DNA from: Bryoerythrophyllum caledonicum
Lineage: Eukaryota; Streptophyta; Bryopsida; Pottiales; Pottiaceae
Direction of reading: 5' to 3'
Length of the DNA stretch: 64,000 nucleotides
Assembly: GCA_963971425.1 (NCBI GenBank)
Contig: OZ020514.1
Coordinates: 11,413,218 to 11,477,217 of the forward strand
This document shows, in pieces, positions 18,082 to 19,239 of the stretch; positions within the stretch are counted from its first letter, which is position 1; each line of letters opens with the position of its first letter. The position numbers were made by a program, and so were the translations under genes. Below the pieces are notes generated by a model. The model searched no databases and was not told where the DNA came from. It saw nothing but the letters and a program-made list of their open reading frames with translations.

Positions 18082-19239
18082 CTATGGGTGAGGTGTCAAG
18101 GCCTTCTCGCCCCCAACCACTTTGCCTGTCACCCTGACAGAGACAAATGGTTCTCTGATCACCCGCAACTCATATGACCCCATGTAACCAGTAAATCTAG
18201 AAGCCAACCGCTTCTGTTCTGCCACTAGCAACGAAACGATCCACGTCAAGCAATTTAAGTCCATCGCTTGCCCAAGTAAAAATCAGCGTTGTTGCTCCGA
18301 GATCCCGGGCGCATCGGTAGTGCCCGTGGAAAATCCCATGGCTCTCTCCCGTTCATCCGCATTAGGCTCCACCATCTCTTGAGACAAGGAATCCCACACA
18401 AGACCCGGGCCGTTATCCTTAAAGGCATACGACCGAGCAAAACTAACCAACGTAGGCAGTGCCTTACGTGGTTCTCCTTTGCGGTTGACGACCGCCAAAG
18501 GTGCTTGGTCGTCATGGTAGACGCGCCGCGGTGCCCTGTGAGGATCCAAAATATCACTCACATAGACATCCGGCCGTTTAATGCGACCCACAACAGACTG
18601 TAACAACTCTTGAGGTGCTAAATTCGTCCACCACAATCGCGGGCGATGTGCTCGCGATCCCACCGCAGCTGCATCCAATAACACGGGCATACCCAGAGTC
18701 TGGTCTATGCGGTGCATGCCCTCCAATGTCCTCGACCTCAAGCTACTCACCACTGGTACATTCTCCACAATGTAACCTGGTGGTCGCTTCTGAGAGATTT
18801 GAAGCAAAGACAATACGCGAATCATATCATGAAACCGCGAAGAACGAGTGTCTTTCAACCCGTTTTGATGTCCAGCCATTGACAATCCTTGATATGGCCA
18901 TCCCGCGATGACAAGGTCCACATGGCCAACACGGTGAATATCCTCTGCTGAAAGCAAAGCAATATCACCAACAAGAGTAGAAAATGAAGTCTTGATGGCA
19001 CTAGTGGCCAACAAGTTTGGGAATTGGATCCTCAATCATCGTGAATGCCGCTTAGCCACGTGCCTTGCTGCCTCATCAATATCTACGTAGATGTAGCGTT
19101 TGACCTTCATCCTTGCTTGCAGCACTGCCGCCAAGCCACTTCCAATCCCACCGAACAACTCCAACAACAGAATATCATCCTCTGGTACCTTCCACTGAAT
19201 GGTGGAAGTGTCTAGACGTGGGCCGAAGTCTTGGTCCAC
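18082..19239 (-). pseudogene. Cytosine-5 DNA methyltransferase domain embedded in gypsy pol
   Basis: Lies between protease and RT in the same frame. C5-methyltransferase motifs in canonical order: I (LLLELFGGIGSG, binds AdoMet), II (YIYVDIDEAARH), IV (LVIAGWPYQGLSMAG), VI (GYIVENVP, with the conserved Glu), VIII (GSRAHRPRLWW), IX region, X (LGQAMDLNCLTWIVSLL). The order is not circularly permuted, unlike plant DRM enzymes. The catalytic PC of motif IV is PY (TAT at 18892-18894 where TGT is expected), so this copy is catalytically dead. Two TGA stops (19036-19038, 18283-18285) interrupt it. An intact relative would methylate cytosines, perhaps its own cDNA (inference). Charophyte and dinoflagellate retrotransposons with such domains are known. 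Confidence 0.92.

Follow-up and report, generated by a model that had tools for sequence, protein, structure and literature searches.

A methyltransferase-carrying Ty3/gypsy element in the moss Bryoerythrophyllum caledonicum and its possible insertion from a 2-LTR circle

The stretch of DNA analysed here (the window) comprises 64,000 nucleotides (nt) of contig OZ020514.1 (positions 11,413,218 to 11,477,217, assembly GCA_963971425.1) from the moss Bryoerythrophyllum caledonicum. It contains a Ty3/gypsy element with boundaries at 13664-25821, whose coding strand is the minus strand and which carries a C5 DNA methyltransferase (MTase) at 18085-19239 (-), in frame between the protease and the reverse transcriptase (RT). 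The element is probably a decayed member of a Ty3/gypsy family that carries an MTase and is of the KnitGypsy-Dnmt3 kind; the family has two open reading frames (ORFs) and would insert by way of a reopened circle holding two long terminal repeats (a 2-LTR circle). The place of the MTase had been recognized in an initial annotation, whose interpretation of the element is partly supported by the present analysis. The tyrosine in motif IV, the PHD finger, the split repeats, the target-site duplication (TSD) and the proposed internal integration site are additional to that annotation, the repeats and this site being the more unusual part of the element.

Split repeats and a proposed internal insertion site

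The order protease-RT-RNase H-integrase, the rve integrase and a short TSD all identify a Ty3/gypsy element, with the protease match slightly below its cut-off. In place of a whole LTR at each end the repeats are split, A1...B1-A2-B2. On the coding strand, a 367-nt repeat A1 (25821-25455), which begins with TGTC, is followed by the body, a 231-nt repeat B1 (14493-14263), which terminates in CACGACA, a GC spacer (14261..14262), a second 367-nt repeat A2 (14260-13894), which again begins with TGTC, and a second 231-nt repeat B2 (13894 to 13664), which terminates in GACA. Between A1 and A2 there are 6 differences in 367 positions, and between B1 and B2 there are 5 in 231. A2 and B2 are joined as TTTGTT/AGTAAA, one A being shared by the two.

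The outer ends of the window copy, TGTC...GACA, are flanked on either side by AATG (25822..25825 and 13660..13663). An exact 4-bp TSD was found in 18 of the 20 copies in which both ends were read, compared with 4 of 380 mismatched pairs, and in none of the 20 does the duplication extend to 5 bp. These copies are that of the window and 19 others, paired by hand, with the B2 end taken as the GACA nearest to the end of the match; one of them begins with TGTG rather than TGTC.

The junction between B1 and A2 is a palindrome, GACAGCTGTC (GACA-GC-TGTC), formed by the GC spacer and its flanks. The window and L001, the one related locus in the genome contigs scanned, each hold the palindrome GACANNTGTC once, 407 nt and 415 nt past the ORF2 stop, respectively. 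A copy of a second subfamily (L083) has the same B1-GC-A2-B2 block, with the palindrome 458 nt past an ORF2 stop that lies earlier. The block has 42 matches in the host genome, the window and 41 others, which are 91-98% alike; three of the 42 overlap in a single tandem of 599-nt units, giving 40 block loci. In the 28 block loci that were compared (L010-L039 minus two of the tandem, the window's copy included), the spacer is 2 nt long in 27 (GC in 23, AC in 3, CC in 1). B1 is directly preceded by a purine-rich tract, GGGCAAAGGGGGCG in the window (14494..14507), which is proposed to be the polypurine tract, and GGGGCG stands before AGTAAA in 22 of the 28 loci. The joint between A and B, accepted behind either TTATTTGTT or TTATTTATT, reads AGTAA in 27 loci and AATAA in one.

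The proposed primer binding site, ACTTGAGAAAGAT (25443..25455), overlaps the last base of A1. It is complementary over 13 nt to ATCTTTCTCAAGT (25591-25603), the loop of a hairpin in A1 (25581..25612) with a 9-bp stem, GGGAGACTC/GAGTCTCCC. Only one of 10,931 start positions in the body has a 12-nt complementary match, and this position is taken to be the primer site. L001 has both the junction and the primer site in common with the window element, the latter in the same arrangement, 359 nt after its TGTC, except that one base pair is exchanged (C:G to G:C). All 8 window-type and all 7 second-subfamily copies that were read retain the site; the loop is retained in all 8 of the former, in 6 of the latter and in 26 of 28 A2 copies. 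If the primer site includes the last A of A1, the LTR would run from AGTAAA to ..TTTGTT, and joining these two ends gives precisely the A2-B2 joint.

A proposed cycle and its alternatives

The positions of these sites suggest the following cycle. The RNA would prime its own reverse transcription, the hairpin loop pairing with the 13-nt site right after A1. Self-priming by the 5' end of the RNA is known from Tf1/sushi elements, which have ordinary LTR ends and are not known to carry an MTase. The window element shows the complementarity, with one compensatory change in L001, and its proposed primer is a hairpin loop. Reverse transcription from the primer site and the purine tract would then generate DNA with an 'LTR' of the form B-GC-A at both ends; this LTR is bounded by the purine tract and the primer site, and the inserted ends fall in its middle. 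The DNA ends would join exactly, thus creating the joint of A and B that is seen between A2 and B2. The DDE integrase would cut the palindrome GACA-GC-TGTC inside one LTR, drop the GC and insert the DNA with a 4-bp TSD. Cutting of a 2-LTR circle at one of its two palindromes would give exactly A1-body-B1-GC-A2-B2, the product whose ends and TSD are observed. A 1-LTR circle would give A-body-B, which is the form of copy L081 (4-bp TSD, GCAA) and seemingly of L082. At about the time of insertion, the PHD finger might hold the complex on nucleosomes, and the element's own DNA might be methylated by its MTase.

The split repeats might also have arisen without a circle, from head-to-tail concatemers, from read-through RNA (both possible sources of such repeats) or by recombination between LTRs after an ordinary insertion. 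Recombination would fit the A-body-B copies and the tandem, in which three B-A units of 599 nt each lie at one element copy (G000:C9:22325590-22327617). The block, however, is the same in 28 loci bar small changes and is also found in the second subfamily, its palindrome is present in L001, and the TSDs lie at the A1 and B2 ends. Given this constancy and this position of the TSDs, a chance rearrangement would not repeat such a structure, and an origin without a circle appears rather unlikely. It is highly improbable that the element belongs to the DIRS type and was inserted by a tyrosine recombinase. The DIRS class carries split repeats, and the order A1-body-B1-A2-B2 matches that of DIRS/PAT elements; the legend of Fig. 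4 in PMC5890265 describes KnitGypsy in this way. Against this, the element has an rve integrase and a 4-bp TSD in 18 of 20 copies, whereas DIRS elements are not known to make a TSD; there is no recombinase match in the seven leader ORFs scanned, and a recombinase would have to be supplied in trans. A PARG match in one leader ORF (0.0016, below the cut-off) is taken as chance.

Several observations tell against insertion of an MTase-carrying family from a reopened circle. An exact TSD is lacking in 2 of the 20 copies, 3 of the 4 bases matching in each, and the spacer is missing in 1 of the 28 blocks. Neither the A nor the B repeat resembles L001 overall, the scores lying below the best of 50 shuffles. 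The A-body-B copies and the tandem can be obtained by recombination between B1 and B2 as well. A scored MTase match lies within 9 kb upstream at only 19 of the 40 block loci, which is a lower bound, and it is possible that copies of the element without an MTase exist.

2-LTR circles are usually regarded as dead ends of retroviral DNA. This has already been questioned for a spumavirus, prototype foamy virus (PFV), the integrase of which cuts a palindromic sequence where the two LTRs of a circle meet (PMC1180852). The spumavirus palindrome is an LTR-LTR junction, whereas that of the window element falls within the LTR that reverse transcription would delimit. In many copies the arrangement of the repeats suggests that 2-LTR circles could be the normal substrate. 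This predicts exactly where the joint and the cut should lie, and it gives an explanation that can be tested for the presence of split repeats in an element whose integrase is of the DDE type. A wider proposal is plausible, if still tentative. Green plants might harbour a lineage of DDE-integrase elements with the integration site inside their own LTR, for which the 2-LTR circle is the true substrate. The MTase and the histone-reading PHD finger may mark and guide this circle, and the MTase might have been kept since before the chlorophyte and streptophyte elements parted and have moved once within Pol.

The methyltransferase, the PHD finger and the state of the window copy

The MTase segment matches PF00145 with E=3.2e-10 (40.4 bits, cut-off 22) and, as the initial annotation had stated, shares a single frame with gag, protease, RT, RNase H and integrase; the frame lies on the minus strand and is interrupted by stops. 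The canonical motif order given there is confirmed for motifs I, IV, VI, VIII and X, which are not permuted. As motif I precedes IV-X, in contrast to the rearranged order of a DRM, this speaks against a DRM; a DRM identity was rejected, in accordance with the earlier argument against capture of a DRM domain. The family was ranked by a PDB profile search with a profile of 37 relatives. DNMT3A is the best match (2.2e-22), followed by DNMT3C (1.8e-20) and DNMT3B (2.1e-19). Weaker matches are 4onj (1.9e-9; listed as a DNA methyltransferase and presumably a DRM), DRM2 (3.7e-8), HaeIII (2.3e-6) and DNMT2 (2.1e-3), and no chain named DNMT1, CMT or DNMT5 is among the 53 PDB chains at E<=0.01. Judged by this ranking, the MTase is closest to DNMT3 among the C5 MTases and can be called DNMT3-like.

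In the window copy the catalytic Cys of motif IV is replaced by Tyr (codon 18892..18894). In a 110-row alignment, counting rows with a letter at this position, 72 of 75 in the first of the groups described below and 30 of 33 in the second have the Cys. The ratio of nonsynonymous to synonymous substitution rates (dN/dS) of the MTase between the window and seven other copies is 0.04-0.07 (about 0.05, between subfamilies), with dS at 1.7-2.2, near saturation; among the seven other copies it is 0.13-0.63 (mean 0.26, 21 pairs). The low ratio between subfamilies indicates that the MTase is kept by selection.

Profile searches of the host genome (437 Mb in 894 contigs) revealed at least 123 PF00145 matches besides the MTase of the window, some of which may be host genes. 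The number is a lower bound because 123 of 1,053 candidates were scored and the window's own MTase was missed. It is hardly tenable that the MTase was inserted late or is carried as an inert passenger by one copy. The window copy is dead, as might be expected of a passenger, but the other matches in the genome refute a late insertion, the MTase has the same place in relatives and dN/dS is well below 1. Of the 123 matches, 34 lie in open frames of at least 1,000 aa, and both ORFs of L001 are open, in line with the intact relatives envisaged in the initial annotation.

The likeliest target of the MTase is newly made DNA of the element itself, before it inserts or as it does so, an assignment made with considerable reserve. 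That such methylation would hide the element from host silencing, as the initial annotation proposed, is a hypothesis. The place of the enzyme in the polyprotein that makes both particle and DNA would favour access to new DNA. The earlier statement that charophyte and dinoflagellate retrotransposon enzymes methylate de novo holds for the Symbiodinium DIRS enzymes, for which such activity is described; in a yeast test the KnitGypsy-Dnmt3 domain caused no methylation, a result its authors call inconclusive (both from the main text of PMC5890265). That test, though inconclusive, counts against the proposed target, and the ratios of observed to expected CpG (0.79 for the body, 0.49 and 0.65 for two flanks, 0.48-0.51 for the loci of three other copies) show no clear trace of methylation. 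Purifying selection says only that the enzyme matters, and its target may instead be a different one: host DNA near insertions, RNA, or chromosomal copies of the element, the spread of which would thereby be limited. Self-limitation and RNA methylation are both discussed in the main text of PMC5890265.

The PHD finger (14734..14868, PF00628 6.9e-10) follows the integrase region and forms the C-terminus of ORF2. Its nearest PDB matches are to CHD4, PHF12, MLL3, ATXR5, ubi-d4, UHRF1 and others, several of which read unmodified H3 tails. PF00628 has at least 150 matches in the host genome (1,526 candidates), and 12 of them have a frame length of exactly 1,047 aa, close to that of ORF2 (1,043 aa in L001). 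These frames and the 34 that contain PF00145 indicate that copies with long ORFs exist.

The remaining coding features of the window copy, all on the minus strand, are gag with a CCHC zinc knuckle (20626..21834, PF00098 2.2e-5), a stretch of polyprotein between gag and protease without a family match (20071..20622), the aspartic protease domain (19243..20052, PF13650 1.1e-4), the RT (16765..17784, PF00078 4.1e-32), and RNase H, H2C2 and the rve integrase (15076..16707; PF17917 8.5e-14, PF17921 1.6e-15 and PF00665 1.2e-11, obtained on the piece 15076-16554). Twelve in-frame stops lie between 21834 and 14674. The last one closes the frame, and that at 17830..17832 is the probable natural end of ORF1, as the relatives P0008 and P0016 terminate at matching residues; ten are therefore premature, two of them inside the MTase. 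With these ten stops and the Cys-to-Tyr change in motif IV, the window copy is dead.

Relatives, known systems and the surroundings of the element

No relative of the element was found in the viral contigs scanned. L001 is a contig of 9,285 nt in a cyanobacterial (Synechococcales) metagenome-assembled genome (MAG) and, because of a 127-nt end overlap, is circular as assembled. Its ORF1 encodes gag-protease-MTase, with the MTase as the last domain, and its ORF2 RT-RNase H-integrase-PHD. L001 is most likely eukaryotic DNA in a bacterial bin. Eukaryotic-looking retrotransposon sequence is also present in P0053, a record named bacterial (Obscuribacterales MAG), and contamination of bins is the likely explanation of both.

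Relatives of the MTase at E<=1e-3 number 185 proteins, and most of the best 120 are from metagenomes. Named sources among the matches listed are Sphagnum troendelagicum (P0084, P0108), Calypogeia fissa (P0078, P0111, P0113) and Marchantia polymorpha (P0116); longer queries add MTase proteins of Marchantia (P0142, P0145, P0147-P0149) and Calypogeia (P0144). The integrase-PHD proteins (best 120 of 359) include those of Volvox reticuliferus (P0197), Tetrabaena socialis (P0214) and Haematococcus lacustris (P0164). A domain scan of P0121-P0275 and the two L001 ORFs, in which 155 of 157 had some match, places an MTase just ahead of the integrase in P0197 and P0214, where the part ahead of the MTase was not seen, and finds no MTase in P0164. 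Two domain orders emerge. The MTase stands before the RT in 5 proteins that reach the RT, and 29 more hold the MTase alone. The second order, RT-RNase H-MTase-integrase-PHD, is found in 18 proteins; 3 partial ones have RNase H, and 20 shorter ones show MTase-integrase-PHD only, including P0197, P0214 and an odd Marchantia protein, P0161.

An unrooted quick tree of the MTase comprised those 110 of 196 matching proteins that cover over 75% of the model. A branch with a Shimodaira-Hasegawa-like approximate likelihood ratio test (SH-aLRT) support of 99.9 separates the 33 rows of the second order from the others. P0206, in which RNase H precedes the MTase, falls together with P0197 and P0214. The split into 33 and 77 rows is partly set by hand because P0161 and P0118 were assigned before the counts, following the tree, the former to the protease-MTase group and the latter to the other. 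In the 77-row group only 6 of the 110 rows are labelled as MTase-before-RT (by their own order or by hand) and 71 are unlabelled, many of these being ORF1 proteins that terminate after the MTase. In an unrooted quick tree of integrase-PHD (107 rows), the window and L001 fall into a 39-row group with support 99, which holds all 30 rows read as being without an MTase between RNase H and integrase; for most of the 30 only one of the two ORFs was seen. The label MTase-before-RT was given to P0157 and P0158 because their contigs are of the same lengths as those of the MTase proteins P0133 and P0030. The simplest reading of these trees would be one capture of the MTase and one move within Pol, the alternative being two captures of the same host enzyme.

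Among known systems, REM1 of Chlamydomonas is a green-algal Ty3/gypsy element, and from the work of Perez-Alegre in 2005 it is said to have a PHD finger, an unusual structure and control by methylation. Unlike in the window element, its integrase is described as truncated, in reverse frame and with a GPY/F module and a chromodomain (PMC2774666, in the part on REM1). The closest system is KnitGypsy-Dnmt3 of Klebsormidium nitens, published in 2018, which has DIRS-like repeats and an MTase under purifying selection (main text of PMC5890265). By that description it shares with the window element the Gypsy domain set, the non-permuted DNMT3-like MTase in Pol and the DIRS-like repeats. 'PHD' does not occur in that main text, and its charophyte, yeast and discussion sections name no primer site, TSD or internal junction such as those described here for the window element. 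None of the relative matches listed is named K. nitens. SymbioDIRS-Dnmt3 of dinoflagellates likewise has an MTase in a retrotransposon Pol polyprotein, but it carries a tyrosine recombinase instead of a DDE integrase, and its MTase is considered an independent capture (main text of PMC5890265). DNMT3 members within streptophyte and dinoflagellate retrotransposons are mentioned, with reference to the 2018 paper, in a passage of PMC12344493, and green-algal gypsy chromodomains are treated in PMC3350952, in the text of which 'PHD' is not found.

The KnitGypsy-Dnmt3 kind is thus already published, and the bryophyte and volvocine members and the host of the window are additional to it. Added here are the relatives in Marchantia, Calypogeia and Sphagnum, the volvocine algae with an MTase directly before the integrase, and the PHD finger after the integrase. 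In a search of open-licence papers, which is weak evidence, neither the bryophyte and volvocine relatives and the second domain order nor the PHD finger of the family and its internal integration site were found described.

A full-length, single-frame C5 MTase of the bacterial Dcm type (TIGR00675 2e-69) is encoded elsewhere in the host assembly, on a 22-Mb contig (L002, G000:C14:16016358-16017317, minus strand), either by gene transfer or by contamination of the assembly. Within the window, a 314-aa ORF without a Pfam match (25763-26707, minus strand) has its final codons inside A1, and the element is inserted in or beside this uncharacterized frame. Large dispersed direct repeats, with units of about 8 kb and long matches about 86-95% alike, occupy 27774-52600, and AGA is repeated in 192 copies at 3165-3742.
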